A stretch of DNA of 64,000 nucleotides from Nitrococcus mobilis Nb-231 (GTDB lineage Bacteria > Pseudomonadota > Gammaproteobacteria > Nitrococcales > Nitrococcaceae): assembly GCF_000153205.1 (NCBI RefSeq), contig NZ_CH672427.1:120899-184898 (forward strand), written 5' to 3'. This document shows positions 2,223-17,716 of the stretch, one piece after another. The notes beneath the pieces are model-generated. The model made no database searches, was not told the DNA's origin, and was given only the letters and a program-made list of their open reading frames with translations. Every line of letters starts with the position of its first letter. Position 1 is the first letter of the stretch. A program made the translations under genes and the position numbers.

Positions 2223-3935
2223 TTACTCACCAGAAAATTTCTCCTCATAAATCTTCAACGCCTCGTCCAATGACCGGGAGAAAGCAATCTGCCCCACCCG
2301 TTCGCGCACGCCGGCGCGGCGCAGCTTGAGGATCATACGCGGGTGCAGATTGTTGATGATCAAACCAATACGGTGGCCGCGTAGTTCCTTAACGATTGAT
2401 TCCATGGAGACAATCGCCGTCATGTCCAGCATTGTGACCTGCGTCATTTCGAGGATGACCACGCACACATCGGGACTGACCATACCGATTTGGCGTATGG
2501 CCTTATGAGCGGAGCCGAAGAACAGCGGCCCCTTTATATCGTAAACGGCCAACCCCTTCGGGAGATCCTGGGTTTCTGCTTTTTTATCGTTGGTGAACGC
2601 TCCACGCAGATCCACGCCGGTGAGGGCGATACTACGGCGAATAAACAGCGCGGCCGCTAGGCCGACGCCGACACTAACCGCGACGACCATGTCGAATATC
2701 ACAGTCAGCGAGAAGCAGGTCAGCAAGGTAATCACATCTTGGCGAGGTGCGATCCTGAGGGTGCGCACGAAGTGGCGCGCCTCGCTCATGTTCCAGGCTA
2801 CCATGATCAACAGCGCCGCCATCGACGCCATGGGAATGTAGGCTAGTAGCGGAGCCAGCACCAGGATGGCGGCCAGAATGAATAGGCTGTGCACGACTGA
2901 GGATAGGGGTAATGAACCACCGGCACGGATATTGGCCGCCGTACGTGCAAGGGCGGCGGTTGCTGGAATACCGCTGAATAGAGGTGCGATCAGATTGCCG
3001 ATGCCTTGCCCGATCAACTCATCGTTAGGATTATGTTTTTTCCCAGACATGCCGTCTGCGACCACCGCGCACAGCAGGGATTCGATTGCGCCAAGCATGG
3101 CGATACTCAACGCCGAGCCGATCAAGGTGTTCACCAGACTAAAGGAAAACCCGATGGGCTCACCATTCGGCCCGGGCTGCTGCCAGGGCCACATAAACTC
3201 CGGCAGCACCGGTGGGATGCCGCTGCCGGTCACCCCATCGATCACATATTGAAAGCGGGAACCGATGGTTTCCACGGTAAAGCCATCGAATACCTCAACA
3301 AGGCTCAGGGCGGCACAGGAGCCGGCCAGTAGTGCGACCAGATGTCCCGGTATCTGGCTGCGCACGCGCGGCCACAGGACCAGGACTAGAAAGGTCACCG
3401 CACCGATCAGTGCCTCCCGCCAATCCAGAGTCGGTAAGGCACTGATGAGGGTAGCCACCTGTTCCGGGAAATGCCCATCCAGGCTCACGAGGTCCAGTCC
3501 GAGTAGGTCCTTGACCTGAAGAGTGGCGATCACCACGCCGATGCCCGCGGTAAACCCAACTGTCACCGGATAAGGCATGACCTCGATTAGGCTACCCAGG
3601 CGCAGTATCCCCATCAGGACCAGAATGATGCCCGCCATGAAGCCACTGAACAGTAACCCACCCAGCCCGTGTTGCTGCACAATCGGCAGTAGCAACACGA
3701 CGAAGGCCGCCGTCGGCCCAGAGACATTCACTTTCGACCCACCAGTCAGGGCAATCACGATGCCCGCGACGATGGCAGTGTAGAGACCATTCTGCGGGGG
3801 CACACCGCTGGCGATTGCCAGAGCCATGGACAATGGCAGGGCGATCACGCCCACGGTGAGGCCGCTCAGGATGTTGGACCAGAGGATCGAAAGCGAGGGC
3901 TTGCTCCGGACACTGCGGGTCAGGGCGTAAAACAC
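2223..3935 (-). CDS. SulP/SLC26 family inorganic anion transporter with STAS domain
   Basis: A membrane transporter of the SulP (SLC26) family, which moves sulfate, bicarbonate or other anions across the cytoplasmic membrane. About 10-12 hydrophobic segments run from residue 15 to about 415, starting with the typical family sequence LSGLTVGVIALPLSMALAIA. A cytoplasmic STAS domain follows at about 450-560 (VVILEMTQVTMLDMTAI). I chose GTG at 3935 because AAGGA lies 7 bases upstream; a TTG 45 bases further upstream would add 15 residues and has no comparable ribosome site. It is monocistronic, with no carbonic anhydrase or sulfate gene adjacent, so the substrate cannot be told. The length of 570 residues is normal. 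Confidence 0.9.
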   Translation of the reverse strand: MFYALTRSVRSKPSLSILWSNILSGLTVGVIALPLSMALAIASGVPPQNGLYTAIVAGIVIALTGGSKVNVSGPTAAFVVLLLPIVQQHGLGGLLFSGFMAGIILVLMGILRLGSLIEVMPYPVTVGFTAGIGVVIATLQVKDLLGLDLVSLDGHFPEQVATLISALPTLDWREALIGAVTFLVLVLWPRVRSQIPGHLVALLAGSCAALSLVEVFDGFTVETIGSRFQYVIDGVTGSGIPPVLPEFMWPWQQPGPNGEPIGFSFSLVNTLIGSALSIAMLGAIESLLCAVVADGMSGKKHNPNDELIGQGIGNLIAPLFSGIPATAALARTAANIRAGGSLPLSSVVHSLFILAAILVLAPLLAYIPMASMAALLIMVAWNMSEARHFVRTLRIAPRQDVITLLTCFSLTVIFDMVVAVSVGVGLAAALFIRRSIALTGVDLRGAFTNDKKAETQDLPKGLAVYDIKGPLFFGSAHKAIRQIGMVSPDVCVVILEMTQVTMLDMTAIVSMESIVKELRGHRIGLIINNLHPRMILKLRRAGVRERVGQIAFSRSLDEALKIYEEKFSGE

Positions 3936-4468
3936 ATCTACTTCCTTGGCGGTAACACCGAGGCCTCTATGCGAATTCAAACATGGTCAACACAGGGCGC
4001 GCGTAATGATCCGCGTCGCTCAGCCTAACGGACAGAAGCGAGAGACCAAGCGCTTTATCCACAGGGGCATTTATGTCTCACAGCTCCCGCCGGTCTTGGA
4101 TGCCCCCTGCTGGCCAAGGTCGGCGCGACGCTATCGAGGATCACCTTGGCGGGCCACCAAGCGTGAGCCACGCCGATAAGTGACCTGGTCAAGACATAAT
4201 ACGATCGGCTGCGCGACCGGCTTGGCGACTCAAGTCGCGACGATAGCCTAATAGCCTACCCGAAACACCCAGCCGGTATTTCGCCTCTGCTGGACCACCA
4301 ACACGGCTAGTCTTGCCAAGGGCAATAGCTATGGCGACAGGCGTTATTCGGATTGATTCTTAAGGGAAGAGATCACCGAGCGGAAATTCATTAAGGGAGC
4401 TATTTAGGGGCTGAACGCTAGCATTGATAGAAAAACACCAGATTTCACAAAGCGTTATTAATTTGTAT
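3936..4468. other. Gap without gene upstream of the SulP gene
   Basis: Apart from the alternative N-terminus of the SulP gene (to 3980), I find no credible gene here. Short frames exist but have no family resemblance. It should hold the SulP promoter and the 3' flank of the tRNA-Ser gene. Confidence 0.4.
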
Positions 4469-4558
4469 TGGCGGAGAGGGAGGGATTCGAACCCCCGGAC
4501 CCCGTAAGGGGTCAACGCATTTCGAGTGCGCCCCGTTCGGCCGCTCCGGCACCTCTCC
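4469..4558 (-). tRNA. tRNA-Ser (anticodon CGA)
   Basis: Read on the minus strand, 90 bases fold into a class II tRNA. The 7-bp acceptor stem is GGAGAGG/CCTCTCC with G as discriminator and an encoded CCA. The anticodon stem GCGCA/TGCGT encloses the loop CTCGAAA, giving anticodon CGA for codon UCG. There is a long variable arm (GACCCCTTACGGGGTC) and the T-loop GGTTCGAATCC. The long variable arm and the anticodon both indicate serine. It lies alone between the SulP gene and mltF. Confidence 0.96.
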
Positions 4559-4746
4559 ACTGGTCGCCTCATACTCACACGACAGGCGGACTGCGCAGTT
4601 TACAATAGAATACCCTGAGTAAGCCAAGGCTAGGCTGCACGATGGCCAAGCGACACGGTTTATCGGGGGGCGACGGATATCCTCGTGATCAGTGCCTGGC
4701 GCTCTACAATAACCGTCCAATTTGACCAAGGCCGTTTTTATTCACT

Positions 4747-6204
4747 ATGGGCCGCTCGTTCGCGCAGCTTTTTATTATTTTGTTGATCCTTAGCGCATGC
4801 CTGCTGAGCTGGTTCGGTCGGATGCACTTCCCCGATCGGCTCCAGCTCGTCCAGCAGCGGGATAAACTTGTCGTGCTCACCCGTCTTGGCGCGAGTACTT
4901 ATTATCAGTCCAACGAAGGGCCGGAGGGGATCGAGTACGATCTTGCGAAGCGCTTTGCCAATCGCCTCGGGGTGCAGTTGGTGATAACGCTGACCGATGA
5001 TCTGGGCAAGCTCGGAGTGCAGCTGGAAACCGGCATGGCAGATCTGGTGGCCACGGGGATCACGGCGACGCCGTTGCGCAGCAAGCGCTTCGCGTTTGCC
5101 ACACCGTACCTGCAAGTATACCCCCAGCTGATCTACCGTGCCGGCTCACGACGCCCGGATGGGCTTGCGAATACGGTCAGCGGATCGCTAGCCGTGCTCG
5201 CCGATACCCGCTCCGAGTGGCTCCTTTCCGACCGCCAAGTTGACATCCCCCAATTGCATTGGGCAGCGCTCACCAATGCCACCAGTGAGGACCTGCTCTA
5301 TCGCGTCTGGAGCAGGCAATTCGATTACGCGGTAGTCAACTCCAACGAATTCACTCTGAGTCAACATTTTTACCCCGAGCTGCGTGTGGCTGGAAATATT
5401 GGCAAGCCGCAGGGGGTGGCGTGGATGTTTCGCCGCGACGGCGATACCAGCCTGCTCGAGGCGGCCAATCGATTCTTTGCGGATTTGCGGGCGAGCGGCG
5501 AACTCAACCAGCTCATCGAGCACTATTATGGTCATCTGGATAAGTTCGATTACGTCGGTACACGGGTATTCATACGCCACATAACCGACCGCCTGCCGCT
5601 CTATCGACAAGCCTTTCAGGAGGCCGCCGAGAAGCATCAGTTGGATTGGCGGTTGCTTGCCGCAATCGGCTACCAGGAGTCGCACTGGAATCCTCAAGCG
5701 AAATCGCCCACCGGCGTGCGCGGCATAATGATGCTCACCCGACCGACGGCCCGCGCGATCGGCGTCGACAACCGACTTGATGCGGGGCAAAGCATTTTCG
5801 GCGGGGCCGCCTACCTAAAGCGTATACTCTCACGCATTCCCGAGCGGGTGCCCGAGCCGCAGAGAACCTGGTTCGCTCTCGCTGCTTATAATATAGGCTA
5901 TGGCCATTTGGTAGATGCCCAAACGATTACCGAAATGCAGGCTGCGAACCCGGAATCTTGGGCGGCTGTACGCAAGCGCCTGCCGCTGCTCGCGCAAAAG
6001 AAATGGTACAAACGGGTAAAATACGGCTACGCTCGCGGTTGGCAGCCCGTACGCTATGTAAAGAACGTTCGCAAGTATTACCGGTTGCTGGTGCGCATCA
6101 CCGAACCAGCCATCCTTGATCCCAAGCACATCGAGGCCGGCAAAGCTATGCTCGAGGGCCGCAGCCCTTTCTATCTAGAGGGCGCCGTCCAGTCGTTGTA
6201 TTAA
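4747..6204 (+). CDS. mltF: Membrane-bound lytic murein transglycosylase F
   Basis: MltF cleaves the glycan strand of peptidoglycan between MurNAc and GlcNAc to give 1,6-anhydro ends. Residues 1-25 form a hydrophobic signal/anchor, and a Cys at about 18 lies in a lipobox-like LILSAC context. Residues 35-265 are a solute-binding-protein fold (family 3) with the typical EGIEYDLAKRFANRLG segment. Residues 285-450 are the SLT catalytic domain with the active-site glutamate in AIGYQESHWNPQA and the downstream ALAAYNIGYGH motif. The length of 485 fits the family. No clear ribosome site precedes the ATG. It is monocistronic and reads away from the tRNA-Ser gene. Confidence 0.95.
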   Translation: MGRSFAQLFIILLILSACLLSWFGRMHFPDRLQLVQQRDKLVVLTRLGASTYYQSNEGPEGIEYDLAKRFANRLGVQLVITLTDDLGKLGVQLETGMADLVATGITATPLRSKRFAFATPYLQVYPQLIYRAGSRRPDGLANTVSGSLAVLADTRSEWLLSDRQVDIPQLHWAALTNATSEDLLYRVWSRQFDYAVVNSNEFTLSQHFYPELRVAGNIGKPQGVAWMFRRDGDTSLLEAANRFFADLRASGELNQLIEHYYGHLDKFDYVGTRVFIRHITDRLPLYRQAFQEAAEKHQLDWRLLAAIGYQESHWNPQAKSPTGVRGIMMLTRPTARAIGVDNRLDAGQSIFGGAAYLKRILSRIPERVPEPQRTWFALAAYNIGYGHLVDAQTITEMQAANPESWAAVRKRLPLLAQKKWYKRVKYGYARGWQPVRYVKNVRKYYRLLVRITEPAILDPKHIEAGKAMLEGRSPFYLEGAVQSLY

Positions 6205-6828: not shown

Positions 6829-8253
6829 GTGGCTGCGAAGCGTAATCTGAGCAACCTTATTGTCTTCCGCAACAGCCAGGGCCTGCAGGCACGCGGCTCT
6901 CTGCTAAAACTCTCCCGCACGACGCTCATTTTCGAAGTCTACAATCCCTACTCCATCGTTCAGCTAAGTGAAGTGCTGGAGGACATGGAGATTCGCAGTG
7001 GCGAGCGAATCGTCTACAGTGGCCGAGCCGTCGTCACCAATTTGGTCAACACGGGATTGATGCTGATCATCTCGGCGCGCCTGGTGGATGCCTGGTCTGA
7101 TTTGCGGGGGTTGATCGGCGATGACCGTAGAATTCAGCAAGAGGTGGTGTCATTCATCGAGGATTGGCAGGACTCGCATCGAATACGCCCAAGCTATCAG
7201 TTAAGCGTATCCCGGATTCGCTCCTTCCTGACCGAGCTGCATCGTTGGCTCGAGCACGTGGACATCGAAGGCGATCCTGCCGACGCGGCATCCAATACCG
7301 AAGAAAAGCGGGAACTGCTCGCTTCTCTCACCAAGCCCCTCCTGCCCCGATTATCCGAGATGTTCGAGCGCTTCGAAGAAGTTGCTGCAGAAGTCTCGGA
7401 CGAAGAGCGCACCACCCATTCCCGTTATGTCCAGCGCGATCTGCACCCGTTGCTTATGCGCGCGCCGTTTGTCCATCGCGCCTACCACAAACCACTCGGT
7501 TATGCCGGCGATTACGAGATGGTCAACATGATGCTGCGCGAACCGCAGGAGGGTCCGACCATCTACGCGCAGCTTATCAACACGCTGTATCTCGACACCG
7601 GTCCCGCCCAGGCCCACCGTAACCGCATCGACATATTGGCGGATTGGCTACAGGAGCGTGTCCGCAAGACTCTGGAGCACCGTGAGCAACCGCGCATACT
7701 CAATATCGGCTGCGGGCCGGCAATAGAGCTCCAGCAACTGATTCGCAGCGAGCCTTTGATGGCTCAGTGCCGGATTAAGCTGGTCGATTTCAGCGAGCAG
7801 ACCCTTGCATACACGAAAGGAAAACTTGACGAGGCCAGTCAAGTAAATGGCATCCGACCAGAAATTGAATACAGTCACGATTCAGTGCACAAGCTACTCA
7901 AACGTGCTTCCCAAAAAAGGGAAGAGGAAGATTACACAGAGGCGTTCGACATCGTCTACTGCGCGGGCCTTTTCGATTATTTATCCGATCGAGTGTGTAC
8001 GCGGCTGCTCAGCCTTTTCTGCCAATGGAGTTGCCCAGACAGCGAGATTTTAGCCACCAACGTGCATCCGAGCAACCCGACTCGCTACTGGATGGAATAC
8101 TTGCTCGAATGGTATCTGATTTACCGGGACGAGCGCCAAATGTTGAAGATTTCCGAAGACCTTGGCCGGCGGGAGGTTTTCGTAGATGAAACCGGGATCA
8201 ATGTTTTTTTGAAAATCTTCAAGGAAGTAGATGCCGACTCGGATGGACATTGA
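6829..8253 (+). CDS. phcB: PhcB-like SAM-dependent methyltransferase, probable hydroxy-fatty-acid methyl ester signal synthase
   Basis: In Ralstonia, PhcB makes the quorum signal 3-hydroxy-palmitate or -myristate methyl ester by methylating a hydroxy fatty acid. This 474-residue protein has an N-terminal beta-rich region (about 10-90, possibly PilZ-like) ending in GRAVVTNLVNTGL. A helical linker follows, then a conserved block around HKPLGYAGDYEMVNMML at about 220-240. The class I methyltransferase fold has its SAM-binding loop ILNIGCGPAIE at about 287-297. The start is GTG with GGAGG 11 bases upstream. It is the first gene of a four-gene operon with sensor and response proteins in the same order as phcBSRQ, which gives the main support for the name. 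The exact substrate is inferred. Confidence 0.8.
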   Translation: MAAKRNLSNLIVFRNSQGLQARGSLLKLSRTTLIFEVYNPYSIVQLSEVLEDMEIRSGERIVYSGRAVVTNLVNTGLMLIISARLVDAWSDLRGLIGDDRRIQQEVVSFIEDWQDSHRIRPSYQLSVSRIRSFLTELHRWLEHVDIEGDPADAASNTEEKRELLASLTKPLLPRLSEMFERFEEVAAEVSDEERTTHSRYVQRDLHPLLMRAPFVHRAYHKPLGYAGDYEMVNMMLREPQEGPTIYAQLINTLYLDTGPAQAHRNRIDILADWLQERVRKTLEHREQPRILNIGCGPAIELQQLIRSEPLMAQCRIKLVDFSEQTLAYTKGKLDEASQVNGIRPEIEYSHDSVHKLLKRASQKREEEDYTEAFDIVYCAGLFDYLSDRVCTRLLSLFCQWSCPDSEILATNVHPSNPTRYWMEYLLEWYLIYRDERQMLKISEDLGRREVFVDETGINVFLKIFKEVDADSDGH

Positions 8254-10852
8254 CCCGGCCGTCGAGCAGGCTTGGGCCGAAAAGGATCGTTCGGCGCGGT
8301 TGCGATTTTCCAGGATCGGCTGTGTGCTTGCCCTCGTCCTGATCCCGGCGGGGGTGACCCTGGATCTGTTCATCTACCCACAGTTTTTCGGCAAATTTTT
8401 GCTGCTGCGCGCGCTTGGTGATGTGGCTGTCCTGGTCATTCTAGGGCTGCATTTCAGTAAAAACGGCCGCGACAATATTCGAATTCTCACGATGGCCTGG
8501 CTGATCATACCCCAGGCAACCATCTGCTACATGATCTACCTGACCGAGGGCTATGCCTCTACCTATTATGCCGGGCTGAATTTAGCGATCCTCGGTATGG
8601 GTGTGTTACTGCCCGTCACCGTATGGGAAGTCGCGATACTCGTTAGCGCTAGCCTGGCGCTTTACCTCGTGGCTTGCTTGAGCCGGACCGAAGAGCCGAT
8701 TAATTCTGTTTTGCTCTACAATAATCTCTATTTTCTCGTCTCTACCGGTGTTATCAGTGCCACCGCCGTGTATTTCAATCGACTTCGACGTTTTACGGAA
8801 TTCCGGCTTAATTTCGAGCTGGATGCACGTCATAAAGAACTAGCGGAGCTGGACCGACTTAAGTCCGAGTTCTTTGCTAATGTCAGCCACGAACTGCGCA
8901 CGCCGTTAACGCTGATTCTTGCGCCGGTGGAGGATCTGCTGCAAAAACGTGCCGCTATTCCGGCGGCCATTGCCAGTCAGTTGGACATCATTTACGGCAA
9001 CGCGCATCGGTTGTTGCGGCTGGTGAACGATCTGCTCGAGGTCATCCGGCTGGAGGAAAGCGGTGTCAAGCTGGATCGTCGGCCACTCGATCTGACGGCA
9101 CTTTTGAAAAGTATCGTAACGGCCGTTGAACCGCTCGCTAAGTCACGCGGTATCACTTTCAAGCAGCGGCTTCCCGACGATCCGGTTCCGATTCGAGGTG
9201 ATCGCAGTGCGCTAGAGAAAGTCTTTTTCAATCTGCTGAGCAATGCATTCAAGTTCACCAACGCTGGGGGTGGCGTTCGCATCACCGCCGAAGTTGAACC
9301 GGATCAAGTGCAGGTGACGGTCCAGGATACGGGCATCGGCATCAGCGAAAGCGATTTGCCGTTCGTGTTTGACCGTTTCCGGCAAGCGGACAGTTCGGCA
9401 ACGCGAAAATACGTTGGCACGGGTTTGGGCCTCGCGCTCGTGAAAGAGCTCACAGAAAAACATGACGGTTCAGCCAAGATTCAGTCAAGACTGGGAGCGG
9501 GCACGGCCATAACGGTTAGTCTTCCCCTGGCGCGTGCCGCGGGTGAGCTCGATGCGGAGCCCACGGATAAAGAAATCTTTGCGCAGCCCGCTAGCGCTGC
9601 GCCATGGCAGGAGCTGGCGGCGGCGCCGGGCACCGATGCGTCTCCAGTCGCTACGGGTGATGATGAGCGGGCAACAGTCTTGGTGGTGGACGATGAGCCG
9701 GACATGCAGCGTTATCTGGTCGAGTTGCTCGCACGGGAATATCGAGTGCTCAAAGCAAGCGACGGGCGGCAGGGGTTGGCGCTCGCACAAAGCCAGCGTC
9801 CGAATCTTATGGTGCTCGATTTGATGCTGCCCGAAATCGACGGTCTGGAGATCTGCCGTCGCATCAAAGAGTCTCCGCAGACCCGTTCGACGCGCATCGT
9901 ATTGCTCACCGCCCGAGCGGACGAGACTACCAAGCTGGCGGCGCTCGAGAACGGTGCGGATGACTTCCTCACCAAGCCGTTCAGCGGTATCGAGGTGCAG
10001 ACTCGGCTGCACAATCTGCTGCGCTCCGCCAAGCTGGAGCAAGACCTGCAATTACGTAACGAAGAGCTGCAGACCACCTTGGATGAGCTCACGCAGACCC
10101 AGAACCAACTCCTGCACAGTGAAAAGATCAATGCACTCGGTCGCCTCTCGGCCGGACTCTTGCATGAGGTCAACAATCCACTGAACTACGCTCTGACCGC
10201 TTTGGAGGTGGTGAAAAACGATCGCACGATCACCGGCGACGAGGAACTCAGTGAAATCATCGGCGATATCGACGAAGGCATGCAGCGTATCCGCGGAATC
10301 GTCTCCGAGCTACGCGCCTTCGCCTACCCCTCCAAGGGTGAACAGCAGACGTTCGATGCCGCCAAAGCCGTACAGGGCGCGGTGCAAATGCTCGTCCACG
10401 AACGTCGCGACGTCGCCGTGTACAACGAGGTTGATGAGAGCTGCTGCGTCAAAGGCTCGCGCAATCACATCGTTCAGGTTCTGGTGAACCTCATCGGCAA
10501 TGCCATCAAGGCCGTACAGGCCGTGGCAGAGCAGCGAGCCGGCGAAATCCGGATACGGGCCGAAGAGGACAATGGGCGCATCCGCGTCAGCGTCCGCGAT
10601 AACGGCACCGGCATACCGGCCGACACATTAAATCGCGTTTTCGACCCCTTCTATACCACCCGGGATGTGGGCGAGGGAATGGGCATGGGTCTGAGCGTCT
10701 GTCAGACCATCGTTCGCAACCACGGCGGCGAGCTTTGCGTGCGTAGCGAAGAAGGCGCCTGGACCGAATTCACTTTTGATCTACCGGCAGCGGATGAGCT
10801 GACCCAGACACAGAGCAAGGCGCACAGGGATGTACGTGAGCGAACCGCATAA
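8231..10852 (+). CDS. phcS: PhcS-like hybrid membrane sensor histidine kinase
   Basis: Likely receptor of the signal made by the preceding enzyme, located in the inner membrane. Residues 28-182 contain about six hydrophobic segments and no large periplasmic domain. A HisKA domain follows with phospho-acceptor H220 (FFANVSHELRTPLTLIL), then an ATPase domain with GIGISE and GTGLGLAL boxes at about 330-440. A receiver domain lies at about 475-600 (VVDDEPD, the LDLMLPEIDG phospho-Asp region, TKPF). A second transmitter follows at about 625-860, with its own histidine in LLHEVNNPLNY and GMGMGLSV near the end. Having two complete transmitters around one receiver is unusual. The gene overlaps phcB by 23 bases; AAGGAA stands just before the ATG. 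The role is inferred from order and domains. Confidence 0.8.
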   Translation: MPTRMDIDPAVEQAWAEKDRSARLRFSRIGCVLALVLIPAGVTLDLFIYPQFFGKFLLLRALGDVAVLVILGLHFSKNGRDNIRILTMAWLIIPQATICYMIYLTEGYASTYYAGLNLAILGMGVLLPVTVWEVAILVSASLALYLVACLSRTEEPINSVLLYNNLYFLVSTGVISATAVYFNRLRRFTEFRLNFELDARHKELAELDRLKSEFFANVSHELRTPLTLILAPVEDLLQKRAAIPAAIASQLDIIYGNAHRLLRLVNDLLEVIRLEESGVKLDRRPLDLTALLKSIVTAVEPLAKSRGITFKQRLPDDPVPIRGDRSALEKVFFNLLSNAFKFTNAGGGVRITAEVEPDQVQVTVQDTGIGISESDLPFVFDRFRQADSSATRKYVGTGLGLALVKELTEKHDGSAKIQSRLGAGTAITVSLPLARAAGELDAEPTDKEIFAQPASAAPWQELAAAPGTDASPVATGDDERATVLVVDDEPDMQRYLVELLAREYRVLKASDGRQGLALAQSQRPNLMVLDLMLPEIDGLEICRRIKESPQTRSTRIVLLTARADETTKLAALENGADDFLTKPFSGIEVQTRLHNLLRSAKLEQDLQLRNEELQTTLDELTQTQNQLLHSEKINALGRLSAGLLHEVNNPLNYALTALEVVKNDRTITGDEELSEIIGDIDEGMQRIRGIVSELRAFAYPSKGEQQTFDAAKAVQGAVQMLVHERRDVAVYNEVDESCCVKGSRNHIVQVLVNLIGNAIKAVQAVAEQRAGEIRIRAEEDNGRIRVSVRDNGTGIPADTLNRVFDPFYTTRDVGEGMGMGLSVCQTIVRNHGGELCVRSEEGAWTEFTFDLPAADELTQTQSKAHRDVRERTA

Positions 10853-12014
10853 ACGGGCAGTCGTACTCTTCGTCGATGACGAGACTAAGGCGCTGAAGTA
10901 TTTCGCGCGTTGCTTCCACCGGGAGTTCAACATCCTCACGGCCAGCAGCGGCGACGAGGCCAGAGAGATACTTGCGCAGCACGGCATGTGTATTGCCGTA
11001 CTGTTAACGGACCAGAGAATGCCCGTCAGCGATGGCATCTCGCTGCTGAGCGAGACTAAAGCACGCTATCCCCACATCGTGCGATTGCTGACCACCGCGT
11101 ATACGGACATCGGCGAAGCCATCGCCGCGGTCAATCGTGGCGAGGTGTGGCGCTATATTACCAAGCCTTGGGATCTTGAGCTCCTGCGCGGCGAGTTGAC
11201 CAATGCACTGGAGCTGTATCGCGAACAGAACCACGAGCGCGAGCTACTCACCGAGCGGCGCAAAAGCATCCTCTCCGTGGCGAGTCACATCGCGCACGAG
11301 ATGCGCACTCCGCTGCTCAGTACCCGTTCCGCCGCCGCGGGCATCGAGCGCTACCTGCCGCGCTTGCTCGAAGGTCACCGCTGGGCTTGTGAGGCCGGGG
11401 CGCCGGTCGAGCCCCTGCGGGAATCGCATAAGTTTGCCCTCGAAGAATCGGTAGTCAGCATTCGCCGCATCGTGGATCGAACGAATATTATGATCGATCT
11501 GTTGCTGGCGAATTGCGGCGGTAAGCGCATCGATCCGACGGCCTTCGATATCTGTCAGATGGGTGAGTGTGTCGACTGCGCCCTGCAAGATTTTCCGTTC
11601 CAGACCGATCAGCGAGAGTGGGTGCACAGCCAGGTCCAGCCGAGTTTTTATTTCCGTGGCTCATGCGGGCTGATGGTGTTCGTGCTGCACAATCTCATGC
11701 GTAACGCGTTCAAAGCAATAAACAACGCGGGCAAGGGGCGGATACGTATTTGGACGAGTCGCGGCGAGACGAGTAATACGCTTCATTTTGAGGATACCGG
11801 CACCGGTATCGATCCGAAGGTATTGCCCGAAATTTTCGAGGACTTCGCCAGTTTTTCGAGTAACGGCAAGGGAGTCGGTATCGGACTTGGCTTCTGTCGC
11901 CGCGTCATGGAAAGCTTCGGAGGCACGATCAGCTGCCACAGCATACCCTCCGTACACACCCGCTTCGATTTGGCATTTCCCCTAGTGGTTGGCGATGGCG
12001 CCGATCGGAGCTGA
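10830..12014 (+). CDS. phcR: PhcR-like response regulator fused to a histidine kinase transmitter
   Basis: The protein has an N-terminal receiver (residues 8-125: VVLFVDDETKALKYF, LLTDQRMPVSDG with the phospho-Asp, RYITKPWD). A transmitter module follows, with the histidine in ASHIAHEMRTPLLSTRSA at about 155 and ATPase motifs FEDTGTGIDP and GVGIGLGFCRRVMESFGG near 330-380. It has no DNA-binding domain. Ralstonia PhcR has this same receiver-kinase arrangement and takes part in the phosphorelay that frees the PhcA regulator. It overlaps the previous gene by 23 bases, so the two are translationally coupled. No phcA-like LysR gene lies in the window. Confidence 0.8.
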   Translation: MYVSEPHKRAVVLFVDDETKALKYFARCFHREFNILTASSGDEAREILAQHGMCIAVLLTDQRMPVSDGISLLSETKARYPHIVRLLTTAYTDIGEAIAAVNRGEVWRYITKPWDLELLRGELTNALELYREQNHERELLTERRKSILSVASHIAHEMRTPLLSTRSAAAGIERYLPRLLEGHRWACEAGAPVEPLRESHKFALEESVVSIRRIVDRTNIMIDLLLANCGGKRIDPTAFDICQMGECVDCALQDFPFQTDQREWVHSQVQPSFYFRGSCGLMVFVLHNLMRNAFKAINNAGKGRIRIWTSRGETSNTLHFEDTGTGIDPKVLPEIFEDFASFSSNGKGVGIGLGFCRRVMESFGGTISCHSIPSVHTRFDLAFPLVVGDGADRS

Positions 12015-12030
12015 TTCTATTGTTTAATTT

Positions 12031-13200
12031 ATGGATGTTAATACACGCGCTATGACGATATATGCGGTTCTCTATGTGGACGACGAGGAGAAGGCGCTGA
12101 AATACTTCCGCCGCGCGGTCGCGGATGAGGCGCTACCGGTATACACCGCTTCCAGTGTTGCGGAGGCCTTGGAAGTGCTGGAAGTTCACGGCGAGGAGAT
12201 CGGTGTCTTAATCACCGATCAGCGTATGCCGGGCCAAACTGGCGTCGACTTGCTGCGCCGCGTTCGCGAAGACTGGCCTGAAATCGTACGCCTGCTGACG
12301 ACGGCGTATTCGGATCTGGACGAGGCAATCGAGGCGGTCAATCGCGGTGAGATCTTCCGCTACATCACCAAACCTTGGGACATTCGGCAGCTGCGCACGG
12401 AGTTGCAGCAAGCTTTGGAAATCCACCGGCTCAGGCTGGAACGCTCATTGCTCATGGAAGAGAAGCTGAGCGTGTGGCAGCGTCTGATCGAGGTCAACCG
12501 CGTGCGTGATCTGGTGGTCATGGCCGGCAGTTTTACCCATATCCGCAATGCCATGACGGCCGTCGCCGCCTATCTGGAGGCCAATGTCACCGCAAGCTAC
12601 CGCGGTAGACTGATTGCTCCGGAACAACTCGACCTGTGGAGTCTGACCGAAACCGAGATCCGGCGCACACTGGGGCTGATCGAGGCGCTCATCCATACCA
12701 CCGAGCCGAACGAGGCTCGGGATGCCTTCGATGCACAGACCAGCCCACGCCGCTTGATCGAGGAGGCCGCGCCGCCGGTGTGCCAAGTGCGTGTGCAGGA
12801 AGTCGACGGGATTCAGCCTGTACTCGTCGATAGGACCCTGGCGCGCTCGCTCGTTGCCAGCTTATGCCACATGAGCGCCGGGGGTGACGAAACGACCGTG
12901 GAGGTACTCTGCGAGCCGGGAAGATTATATGGGGAGCTGGCGGCCACCGTTATGACCTTCTGCAGCGCGAGTAATTATCAGGCACCGGAAGGGACGTCCG
13001 GTTTGGATGTGATCCCGGAGCATCTGAGCGCCTACCTCATTGCCTATCATCACGGTGGCAGCCTACAGCCGGTCCTGGATGGTTCTATCCAGAAGGGCTT
13101 CCGCCTCACCCTGCCCACCGAGCCGGCGGTGGTGCCTGCGGGGCAACCCGCCGAAGGCTGGTTGGAAAGGATTCTCGCGCGCTTGGAGTGTTGGGAGTAG
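12031..13200 (+). CDS. phcQ: PhcQ-like response regulator with degenerate transmitter
   Basis: The N-terminal receiver (residues 10-130) closely resembles that of the preceding protein: VLYVDDEEKALKYFRRAV, LITDQRMPGQTG, RYITKPWD. The C-terminal half keeps a histidine in a kinase-like helix (SFTHIRNAMTAVAAYL, about 170-185), but I cannot find the usual N, G1 and G2 ATP-binding boxes, so autokinase activity is doubtful. It starts 16 bases after the preceding stop; a second ATG at 12052 is an alternative start. Ralstonia PhcQ is the fourth gene of phcBSRQ and a receiver protein, which matches this position. Function as an output or signal-dampening protein is inference. Confidence 0.75.
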   Translation: MDVNTRAMTIYAVLYVDDEEKALKYFRRAVADEALPVYTASSVAEALEVLEVHGEEIGVLITDQRMPGQTGVDLLRRVREDWPEIVRLLTTAYSDLDEAIEAVNRGEIFRYITKPWDIRQLRTELQQALEIHRLRLERSLLMEEKLSVWQRLIEVNRVRDLVVMAGSFTHIRNAMTAVAAYLEANVTASYRGRLIAPEQLDLWSLTETEIRRTLGLIEALIHTTEPNEARDAFDAQTSPRRLIEEAAPPVCQVRVQEVDGIQPVLVDRTLARSLVASLCHMSAGGDETTVEVLCEPGRLYGELAATVMTFCSASNYQAPEGTSGLDVIPEHLSAYLIAYHHGGSLQPVLDGSIQKGFRLTLPTEPAVVPAGQPAEGWLERILARLECWE

Positions 13201-15674: not shown

Positions 15675-16364
15675 ATGCGTGCTCTGATCATCGAAGACGA
15701 CCGGCATTTGCTGGAGCAGCTCAAGGAGCATCTGGCGAGCGCGGGCTTGGTGGTGGATACGGCCGCCGACGGGCGCGAAGGTTGTCATATGGCCATCGAA
15801 TACCCACTCGATGTGGCCGTGATTGACCTGGGGTTGCCACACGTTTCGGGGCTGGAGATCATCAAGGCGACGCGTGCTGCCGGGCGCCGGTTTCCGATCC
15901 TCATCCTTACGGCCCGCACTCGCTGGCAGGACAAGGTGGCCGGGCTGGAGGCCGGCGCCGACGACTATCTGGTCAAGCCCTTTCACCCAGAGGAATTGCT
16001 GGCCCGGCTGCGCGCATTGCTGCGGCGCACGAGCGGCTGGGCTCAGCCGCTATTGATCTGTGGCCCCGTACGGCTTGATATCTCGAGCCAGGCGGTCATG
16101 CTCGATGGTCGGCCCGTTGCTCTCACCGGGTTCGAATACCGGGTGCTGGAATATCTAATGCTCCACGCCGGGGAGGTGGTATCCAAGACCACGCTCACCG
16201 AGCACCTCTATGCCGAGGACGGCGACCGCGACAGCAACGTCATCGAGGTATTCGTCCGGCGCCTGCGGCGTAAGCTGGATCCGGATGGCCGGCTGGCGGC
16301 GATCGAGACGCTGCGCGGTCGAGGCTACCGGTTCACCCTGCCGCGGCAAGAGCCTGAGGCGTGA
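15675..16364 (+). CDS. OmpR-family response regulator (QseB/PhoP-like)
   Basis: Residues 1-115 form a receiver domain: acidic pair IIEDDRHLLEQ, phospho-Asp in VAVIDLGLPHVSG, Thr in ILTARTRWQDK and the Lys of VKPFHPEEL. Residues 128-224 are a winged-helix DNA-binding domain ending in IETLRGRGYRFTL, typical of the PhoP/QseB branch. The stop overlaps the kinase start by four bases. This protein is the natural candidate to bind the two TTCAG-N6-TTCAG boxes upstream of the operon and of the divergent gene, which would make the operon autoregulated. The signal is unknown. Confidence 0.93.
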   Translation: MRALIIEDDRHLLEQLKEHLASAGLVVDTAADGREGCHMAIEYPLDVAVIDLGLPHVSGLEIIKATRAAGRRFPILILTARTRWQDKVAGLEAGADDYLVKPFHPEELLARLRALLRRTSGWAQPLLICGPVRLDISSQAVMLDGRPVALTGFEYRVLEYLMLHAGEVVSKTTLTEHLYAEDGDRDSNVIEVFVRRLRRKLDPDGRLAAIETLRGRGYRFTLPRQEPEA

Positions 16365-17716
16365 GCTCGCTGCACACCCGGCTGTTGCTCGCAGCCACCT
16401 GCATTCTGGTCGTTTTTATCGCGGCGACGGGGCTGGCGCTGGACCATGCGGTTTACGAGCGGACTTTGCACGCCGAGCGTGACAAGCTCCAAGGGCTGCT
16501 CTATGCCGTGTTGGGTGCCGCCGAGCTGGACTCGGATGATGTCCTTACTGTGGCGCTGGCACAATTGCCGGAGGGTCGGCTGGTGCAGCCGCAATCGGGC
16601 CTCTATGCCTTGCTGTTGGATGCCACTGCAGAGGTAGTCTGGCAGAGCCCATCGCTGCTGTTTCCGGCACCGAGGGTGGTTGCGCCCGCGGTCGGGCACT
16701 GGCGGTTTCAGAATGTGTCGAAAACGGGCTTCGGCCCCGTTTTTGTCCTCAGCTTTGGCATTCGCTGGCTGGGGGAGGACGCCGGCGGTCGCCGCTACAC
16801 GGTGGTGGCATTGGAGGATAGGACGGATTTCGATGCTCAGCTACGACAATTCCGCACCAATCTCTGGACGTGGCTCATCGGGGCCGCCGTATTGCTCCTG
16901 GTAACGCAGTTGCTCGTGCTGCGCTGGAGTTTGTTGCCGCTGGGGCGGCTGATGCAAGAGTTGCGTCGTATCGAGGCGGGGGAACGCGACACCATCGGCC
17001 CGAGTTATCCCGATGAGCTGCAACCTCTGGTGGCAGCGTTGAATGCCATGCTCGAGCACGAGCGCCGCCAACGGGCTCGTTACCGTAATGCTCTTGCCGA
17101 TCTGGCGCACAGTCTGAAAACCCCACTGAGCGTGTTGCAGGGTATTGCCCAGAGCAATGAGCGCAGCAGCAGTGCGCAGCGCCGGGTCGCATTGGAGCAG
17201 CTCTCTCGCATGGGCGCTATCGTCGACTATCAGCTCAAGCGCGCCGGCGCGGCGGGGCGGCAGGTGCTGCGCCGGCCGGTGCCGCTTGGCCCGGTGGTGG
17301 GTCGGTTGATAGCGGCACTCGAGAAGGTCTATCGAGACAAGACACTGGAATTCGAGCTGCAGATTGTTCCCGCGGCGCTGGCACTGCGCGCCGATGCGGA
17401 CGATTTGATGGAAATGCTGGGTAATCTGCTCGATAACGCCGCCAAATGGGCGCAGGGGCGCATTGGTATCCGGGCCGAACGCTCGGCGGAGCAATGGGTG
17501 ATTCAGGTCGACGACGACGGTCCAGGGTTTCCGGCGCAGGCGTTGGAGCGCCTGCGCGAGCGCGGTGCCCGCGCGGATACCCGCACCGAGGGTCAGGGCA
17601 TCGGGCTGGCAATTGTCGATGAACTGGTGCAAAGCTATGGCGGTACGCTGAGTGCCGAGCCCTCACCGCTTGGAGGCGCCCGGCTGGTGATCCGGATTCC
17701 GGCTCGTTCGCTATAA
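16361..17716 (+). CDS. Sensor histidine kinase partner (PhoQ/QseC-like)
   Basis: The protein has a transmembrane helix at 9-28, a periplasmic sensor of about 135 residues and a second helix at 168-188 (WLIGAAVLLLVTQLLVL). A HAMP-like linker follows, then the dimerisation helix with the phospho-acceptor in LADLAHSLKTPLSVLQGIA, and the ATPase domain with NLLDNAAKWAQ, DDDGPGF and GQGIGLAIVDELV. The H-box HSLKTPL rather than HELRTPL is characteristic of PhoQ-type kinases. It starts with GTG overlapping the regulator gene. It should phosphorylate that regulator and may be tuned by the PepSY protein of the same operon. Confidence 0.92.
   Translation: MSSLHTRLLLAATCILVVFIAATGLALDHAVYERTLHAERDKLQGLLYAVLGAAELDSDDVLTVALAQLPEGRLVQPQSGLYALLLDATAEVVWQSPSLLFPAPRVVAPAVGHWRFQNVSKTGFGPVFVLSFGIRWLGEDAGGRRYTVVALEDRTDFDAQLRQFRTNLWTWLIGAAVLLLVTQLLVLRWSLLPLGRLMQELRRIEAGERDTIGPSYPDELQPLVAALNAMLEHERRQRARYRNALADLAHSLKTPLSVLQGIAQSNERSSSAQRRVALEQLSRMGAIVDYQLKRAGAAGRQVLRRPVPLGPVVGRLIAALEKVYRDKTLEFELQIVPAALALRADADDLMEMLGNLLDNAAKWAQGRIGIRAERSAEQWVIQVDDDGPGFPAQALERLRERGARADTRTEGQGIGLAIVDELVQSYGGTLSAEPSPLGGARLVIRIPARSL

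Follow-up and report, generated by a model that had tools for sequence, protein, structure and literature searches.

A stretch of 64,000 nucleotides from Nitrococcus mobilis Nb-231 (contig NZ_CH672427.1, positions 120,899 to 184,898; here called the window) carries four genes whose sequences identify the locus as a Phc-type operon with PhcB-, PhcS-, PhcR- and PhcQ-like products (Table 1). Its probable function is quorum sensing by a two-kinase variant of the Phc system, in which an ester would be made by PhcB, sensed by PhcS and relayed to PhcR and PhcQ; we put the probability of this reading at about two in three. Gene content, order, homology, motifs and conservation are observations reported below. 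Judged by its sequence, the operon is not a copy of the Ralstonia operon, because the second gene holds two complete kinase cores, unlike the betaproteobacterial PhcS proteins that served as yardsticks.

An earlier note on the window had described four plus-strand genes at 6829-13200 in the order methyltransferase, hybrid kinase, receiver-kinase and receiver with a degenerate kinase. Open reading frame (ORF) calls confirmed the coordinates and the order. The 23-base overlaps it reported were found for phcB/phcS and for phcS/phcR, phcR and phcQ being tightly spaced with a gap of 16 bases. The equation with Ralstonia phcBSRQ stands for the order and the four gene types, not for the content, since PhcS carries an extra kinase-receiver module. 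The location outside Ralstonia is correct for the host, but such operons had already been established in further Betaproteobacteria, among them Cupriavidus and Hydrogenophaga (PMC10653808). The distribution of Phc described in a published survey is confined to the Betaproteobacteria. In the open-licence PMC literature no description of phcB or of the operon outside the Betaproteobacteria, or of a two-kinase PhcS, was found; PhcB was one of 13 signal synthases surveyed in human gut species in a text that also holds the string 'Verrucomicrobi' (PMC12503165).

Table 1. Positions in the window of the phc-like genes and of the domains of their predicted products
Feature	Position	Strand	Remarks
phcB-like gene	6829..8253	+	474 amino acids (aa), methyltransferase, GTG start; proposed fatty-acid methyl ester synthase
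PhcB N-terminal six-stranded part	6853..7083	+	residues 9-85, contains R22; strands from model
PhcB S-adenosylmethionine (SAM) methyltransferase domain	7636..8226	+	about residues 270-466; motif N292-I-G-C-G-P297
phcS-like gene	8231..10852	+	873 aa, membrane sensor with two kinase cores
PhcS membrane sensor segment	8297..8815	+	about residues 23-195; homologous to the Burkholderiales PhcS segment
PhcS first histidine kinase core (HK1)	8861..9532	+	residues 211-434, His220
PhcS internal receiver	9677..10006	+	residues 483-592, Asp530
PhcS second histidine kinase core (HK2)	10094..10798	+	about residues 622-856; HEVNNP His645, probable counterpart of the Ralstonia H230 kinase
phcR-like gene	10830..12014	+	394 aa; receiver (Asp61) and kinase core (His156)
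phcQ-like gene	12031..13200	+	389 aa; receiver (Asp63) and probable decayed kinase core

Orthology, gene order and conservation

Two operons stood in for the Ralstonia proteins, those of Hydrogenophaga sp. PBL-H3 (locus L104, genome G159) and of a Cupriavidus-like genome (L172, G1121). The 19 kb of the G159 phc contig that were tested were 100 % identical to the Hydrogenophaga sp. PBL-H3 plasmid; G1121 was nearest to Cupriavidus megaplasmids or chromids, with a best identity of 77.9 % over 44 % of 14 kb. The Hydrogenophaga operon encodes B, S (441 aa), R (402 aa) and Q (318 aa), the Cupriavidus-like operon proteins of 467, 445, 376 and 335 aa in the order B, S, R, Q. The PhcB, PhcR and PhcQ lengths of the latter are close to those published for Ralstonia (464-468, 368-374 and 336-337 aa, PMC8578825).

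The relationship to Phc proteins put forward in the earlier note held in searches as well as in the PhcB phylogeny. Searched against the whole Nitrococcus genome, the three signalling proteins of Hydrogenophaga found the operon genes as best matches: PhcR the phcR gene (3.9e-51, phcQ next with 1.2e-23), PhcQ the phcQ gene (3.6e-47, phcR next with 4.0e-37) and PhcS the second kinase of PhcS (3.9e-63), followed by the N-terminal half of the same protein (6.8e-42). Nitrococcus PhcB matched its own genome once, at its own locus. Within both reference operons the best matches of the Nitrococcus proteins fell in the order B, S, R, Q, and the identity of PhcB to 32 Burkholderiales loci was 42.7-47.2 % over nearly the full length. 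The locus shares with the operons of Ralstonia, Cupriavidus and Hydrogenophaga the same four genes in order, on the same strand and tightly spaced, with a membrane sensor, a HEVNNP kinase holding the probable counterpart of H230, a receiver-kinase PhcR and a receiver PhcQ. It differs by the extra HK1-receiver module of PhcS (873 aa, where the two yardsticks have 441 and 445 aa), a longer PhcQ (389 aa against 318 and 335 aa) and the gammaproteobacterial host. No clear PhcA was seen among the eight LysR-type matches of the genome, two of which are partly masked. According to PMC10653808, phcX/lqsR adjoins the phc genes in three genera only, Ralstonia, Cupriavidus and Hydrogenophaga.

A GGAGGG stretch lies upstream of the GTG start of phcB at 6829. 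The 23-base overlap of phcB and phcS is also present in loci L001-L004; that of phcS and phcR is not exactly repeated, with 26 bases in L001 and L002 and one base in L004 when the first start codon is used. Predictions of promoters and terminators at the locus gave no excess over shuffled sequences.

Ratios of nonsynonymous to synonymous substitutions (dN/dS, Nei-Gojobori), obtained in 11 comparisons all within Nitrococcus, were 0.051-0.119 for phcB (n=4), 0.086-0.148 for phcS (n=3), 0.106-0.143 for phcR (n=2) and 0.120-0.152 for phcQ (n=2). In L001 and L002 the genes neighbouring the operon are conserved as well. In the loci of WFHF3C12 (L005), Salinisphaera (L006) and L009, only the four phc genes of the first 24 kb of the window match with more than 90 bits, except for one frame antisense to phcS in L005. 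A decaying or chance assembly of two-component genes next to a methyltransferase would agree with the loss of recognisable kinase motifs from PhcQ, yet it is contradicted by the conservation: dN/dS is 0.05-0.15 in all four genes, PhcB is present in all five genomes of the genus that were searched, and the order is kept in other families without other matching neighbours. We regard such an assembly as hardly credible.

PhcB: structure, relatives and possible product

The AlphaFold model of PhcB (mean predicted local distance difference test, pLDDT, 85) has six strands at the N-terminus, helices in the middle and the fold of a class I methyltransferase. Its top match in the PDB was 3ocj (Z 19.2, root mean square deviation (rmsd) 3.5, 266 residues aligned), in a comparison that hardly covers the N-terminus, residues 171-468 being those spanned by a fifth or more of the rows. 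For 29 relatives 25 Pfam families were listed; they include neither PilZ nor any other named domain for this N-terminus. In a sequence search for solved relatives, designed repeat proteins gave two matches, both weak (E 0.003 and 0.007) and taken as chance.

Eighty-six of the 474 positions, R22 included, are invariant in 15 PhcB sequences from gamma-, alpha- and betaproteobacteria and Verrucomicrobiota. R22 is residue 22 in the Cupriavidus-like PhcB too, and from this numbering residue 22 of Ralstonia PhcB is inferred to be the same position. The exchange R22C in R. solanacearum PhcB affects signal synthesis (PMC6989110).

The closest named relatives of PhcB came from metagenome-assembled genomes (MAGs), with 94 % identity under the label Gammaproteobacteria, 93 % under Nitrococcus mobilis and 79 % under Nitrococcus sp. 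(two records). Relatives of PhcB, mostly adjoined by the sensor, came from records titled Gammaproteobacteria, Hyphomicrobium, Kordiimonadaceae, Verrucomicrobiota, one Planctomycetota (Anammoximicrobium), one Omnitrophota and the candidate division FCPU426; these labels are record titles as deposited, many of them of MAGs. Among 59 kin genomes 12 matched PhcB, the own genome included: the protein was full length in 5 of the 5 genomes of the genus and in one of 18 others of the family, and the remaining six matching genomes, of the same order, held only distant PhcB-like proteins with 30-34 % identity over part of the length. A class-wide sample gave matches in 9 of 369 genomes including the own, full length in only two (own and G159), a rarity that tells against a wide reading. 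In the family of G159, 25 of 399 genomes had a full-length PhcB, and in its order 9 of 399, the samples sharing G159, G461 and G489.

The phylogenetic tree of PhcB contained 65 rows after thinning from 121, six of them outgroup rows, with branch support from the Shimodaira-Hasegawa-like approximate likelihood ratio test (SH-aLRT). A branch with 99 % support parts all Phc-type PhcB from the six rows of distant methyltransferases. Nitrococcus PhcB groups with WFHF3C12 and Salinisphaera (100 %), the Burkholderiales form a single clade (100 %), and within the Phc-type set the nearest proteins to Nitrococcus PhcB are those of other Gammaproteobacteria. A closer relationship of the methyltransferase to a different family, which by the earlier note would have refuted its reading, was not seen in this tree: the protein falls into one set with Burkholderiales PhcB, apart from the outgroup.

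The product of PhcB may be a different small signal and not a 3-hydroxy fatty acid methyl ester, within the same circuit anatomy for quorum or self sensing. The identity of only 43-47 % to Burkholderiales PhcB would allow this, as would the spread of the family over several phyla by record titles. Lipids differ between those phyla. Even within Ralstonia the ester chain varies between 3-hydroxypalmitic and 3-hydroxymyristic acid methyl ester (3-OH PAME and 3-OH MAME; PMC10653808, PMC13320629). Against a different signal stand the 86 invariant positions in diverse sequences and the conservation of the membrane sensor alongside PhcB, and we consider it unlikely.

Two further loci held other arrangements of phcB-like genes. 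A distant PhcB-like gene (about 30 %) in L089 (461-2955) is followed by an ORF weakly matching the Phc membrane sensor, perhaps a sister signalling pair. L023 (7269-10374), in a record titled Candidatus Anammoximicrobium, has two PhcB-like genes in tandem with 31 % and 46 % identity to Nitrococcus PhcB.

The two-kinase sensor PhcS and its distribution

PhcS consists of a membrane segment, a HisKA/HATPase pair, a receiver and a second HisKA/HATPase pair. In an alignment of 12 sequences the membrane segment, with a hydrophobic N-terminal part, is common to long and short PhcS proteins, with 37 % identity to the Hydrogenophaga segment; in short PhcS it runs directly into the last kinase. Both kinase cores and the receiver show motifs that are recognisable as what we take to be H, D, N and G boxes. 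No PAS domain was matched in PhcS at E 0.01. The HEVNNP histidine of the Cupriavidus-like PhcS, residue 233 of 445, aligns with His645 of Nitrococcus, in line with H230 as the kinase histidine of Ralstonia PhcS (PMC11960443). The kinase known from Ralstonia is therefore most likely the second kinase of the Nitrococcus protein, and HK1 with its receiver is most likely an added or ancestral module.

The two forms of PhcS were counted in 113 loci: the Nitrococcus operon, 80 kept from 120 relatives (138 stretches) and 32 Burkholderiales loci. Second copies of the same genomes (L081-L086 and others) had been dropped, and distant PhcB-like loci were left out. The survey of relatives favours Nitrococcus-like loci, because the scan used short peptides of Nitrococcus PhcB. 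PhcS was long in 62 loci, short in 31 and not classifiable in 20 with truncated contigs or with split or fused reading frames. All 28 classifiable Burkholderiales loci were short (four not classifiable, none long). We take the single kinase of these loci as usual for the Phc operon and not as an essential trait, and the Nitrococcus locus is classed as a variant for this difference. Long forms occurred in proteobacteria outside the Burkholderiales, in Verrucomicrobiota and in others, and the two-kinase PhcS is the commoner form among the relatives examined. Three short forms lay outside the Burkholderiales, two in MAGs labelled Rickettsia or Rickettsiaceae and one in a Roseibacillus MAG.

A Phc ester sensing spread over several phyla, with the two-kinase protein as the usual sensor and the Ralstonia type as a stripped-down sensor whose module was lost more than once, is a tentative idea that we rate a little short of even odds. 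Placed on the PhcB tree, the short-PhcS label requires three changes, two of them forced by well-supported branches. With its very long outgroup branches the tree does not distinguish insertion from loss of the HK1-receiver module.

The Rickettsia-labelled MAGs (L013 and L033) carry PhcB with a short PhcS; their labels may be wrong. The Roseibacillus MAG L047, with a short PhcS (3667-5205), pairs with a long form, and other Roseibacillus loci, for example L043, L046 and L048, have the long PhcS. The short form of L047 is possibly a natural loss of the kinase-receiver module, or an assembly artefact of the MAG.

The complete order B-S-R-Q was found in seven loci with long S (the window, L001, L002, L005, L006, L009 and L029; three are Nitrococcus) and in 13 with short S. 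Of the 62 long S genes, 42 are followed by a single Q-like gene, 7 by R-Q, 3 by Q-R, 3 by Q-Q, 2 by Q and an unclassed gene, 1 by Q-Q-R and 1 by one truncated gene; the other 3 have no such gene downstream. L017 is a fourth Q-R locus with a split PhcS frame. The 31 short-S loci have R-Q in 13, and another 13 lie on stretches too short to reach R. From the downstream counts, few long-form loci share the full order with the Burkholderiales and B-S-Q is commoner.

Among the surveyed loci, L014 (7630-8853) and L020 (7726-8853), both Hyphomicrobium, have a second PhcQ-like receiver gene just upstream of phcB. On the plasmid pPHS1_P of Paraburkholderia graminis, which was typed as conjugative, phcB, a short phcS and two receiver genes (L094, 11995-16370) lie upstream of a PelD-like gene at a distance of about 8.7 kb; here a mobile element bears a Phc cassette.

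Proposed signal relay and comparison with known systems

The receiver of PhcR holds Asp61, and its kinase core holds His156 together with N and G boxes that can be recognised; PhcQ has a receiver with Asp63. Neither has a DNA-binding domain. The degenerate kinase noticed before in the fourth gene agrees with the Pfam search, which finds no kinase in the C-terminal part of PhcQ. A G-box sequence is kept in this part in L030, L036, L041 and L044 and is absent from Nitrococcus PhcQ. In a comparison of the AlphaFold2 model of PhcQ (mean pLDDT 83) with the PDB the first match by E-value, over the full length, was LvrB, a receiver-controlled kinase. The model and the sequences of relatives point to a decayed kinase core.

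How PhcS, PhcR and PhcQ pass the signal in Ralstonia is still called for in the literature (PMC8578825, PMC11960443). For Nitrococcus we infer an ester signal, a direction of phosphotransfer and a type of output, as follows. PhcB would methylate a (3-hydroxy) fatty acid to the methyl ester, which would leave the cell and at high density be sensed by the membrane segment of PhcS. Within PhcS, a phosphoryl relay may run from His220 of HK1 to Asp530 of the receiver, which would switch on HK2 or charge it at His645. HK2 would then phosphorylate the receivers of PhcR and PhcQ. PhcR, as a receiver-controlled kinase, could pass the signal on in a second kinase step. PhcQ, with a dead kinase core and no DNA-binding domain, may contact a transcription factor encoded elsewhere, in the manner of Ralstonia PhcQ, which binds and stabilises PhcA (PMC13320629).

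The arrangement of the sensor resembles that of TodS of the Pseudomonas putida TodS/TodT system by the order kinase-receiver-kinase within one protein. TodS, with a transmitter-receiver-transmitter-receiver layout, runs a His-Asp-His-Asp relay (PMC4321377). It differs from PhcS by PAS sensors, the lack of a membrane segment and a DNA-binding partner, and the available text mentions no methyltransferase. The whole set resembles the Lvr proteins of Leptospira, with the architectures HK-receiver-HK (LvrA), receiver-HK (LvrB) and receiver-Bergerat (LvrC), which act in series without DNA-binding domains. LvrA phosphorylates LvrB, LvrB phosphorylates LvrC, and LvrC is taken by its authors for an anti-sigma factor (PMC5863495, PMC13269768). 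The Lvr system has a PAS sensor and is predicted to be cytoplasmic, and no PhcB is mentioned in the parts available. The LvrA model was the first NCBIfam match of PhcS, with 338.8 bits against a cut-off of 1200.

The likeness to LvrA and LvrB would also fit a circuit without intercellular signalling, a stress or metabolic relay like Lvr or TodS, in which the substrate of PhcB is a lipid or protein inside the cell and PhcS responds to the condition of the membrane. PhcB-like proteins of more distant kinship are present elsewhere, in roles yet to be assigned, and a LuxI-family synthase encoded in the genome could serve quorum sensing instead. We regard an internal circuit as quite improbable, since the gene order and the pairing of PhcB with the sensor match the operon type proven in betaproteobacterial quorum sensing.

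Several points weigh against the proposed two-kinase Phc quorum sensing. The domain call of PhcB as class I methyltransferase scored below the Pfam cut-offs, and the branch joining the Nitrococcus group, the Burkholderiales and some other Proteobacteria in the PhcB tree is weak, with 82 % support. The identity of PhcR to 15 Burkholderiales PhcR proteins was 29.1-34.8 % over nearly the full length, that of PhcQ to 15 PhcQ proteins 43.7-55.8 %, mainly over the receiver. The whole-molecule superposition of PhcQ and LvrB was poor (template modelling (TM) score 0.3, rmsd over 22). HK1 could feed PhcR just as well as HK2 could, because LvrA directly phosphorylates LvrB. Finally, the earlier note had seen no phcA-like regulator in the window, and among eight LysR-type helix-turn-helix matches of the genome, examined without a PhcA sequence as reference, no clear PhcA emerged. 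Two of the eight were partly masked. Six were read against NCBIfam, of which five resemble OxyR, MetR, CysB, CbbR and ModE and the sixth (326 aa) was unassigned; the CysB-like protein alone clears its own equivalog cut-off, and the ModE-like protein that of the Mop domain.

If the operon of Nitrococcus and its relatives works alike, fatty ester signalling would extend to a nitrogen-cycle organism, a nitrite oxidiser, as well as to Hyphomicrobium and Verrucomicrobiota, and non-pathogenic hosts would be on offer for solving the signal transfer among PhcS, PhcR and PhcQ. Nature itself provides loci with and without the HK1-receiver module, on which the effect of extra relay steps on a quorum response could be tested directly.

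The LuxI-family acyl-homoserine lactone synthase match (G000:C1:2775141-2775644, L193) lies outside the window and has 94.3 bits, over the Pfam cut-off; two quorum systems may therefore operate in this organism. The idea that this synthase provides the only one was rejected, its gene being far from the phc operon and without bearing on it. In the window, an OmpR-type regulator and sensor kinase pair lies downstream of the operon at 15675-17716 and is syntenic in the closest relatives L001 and L002.

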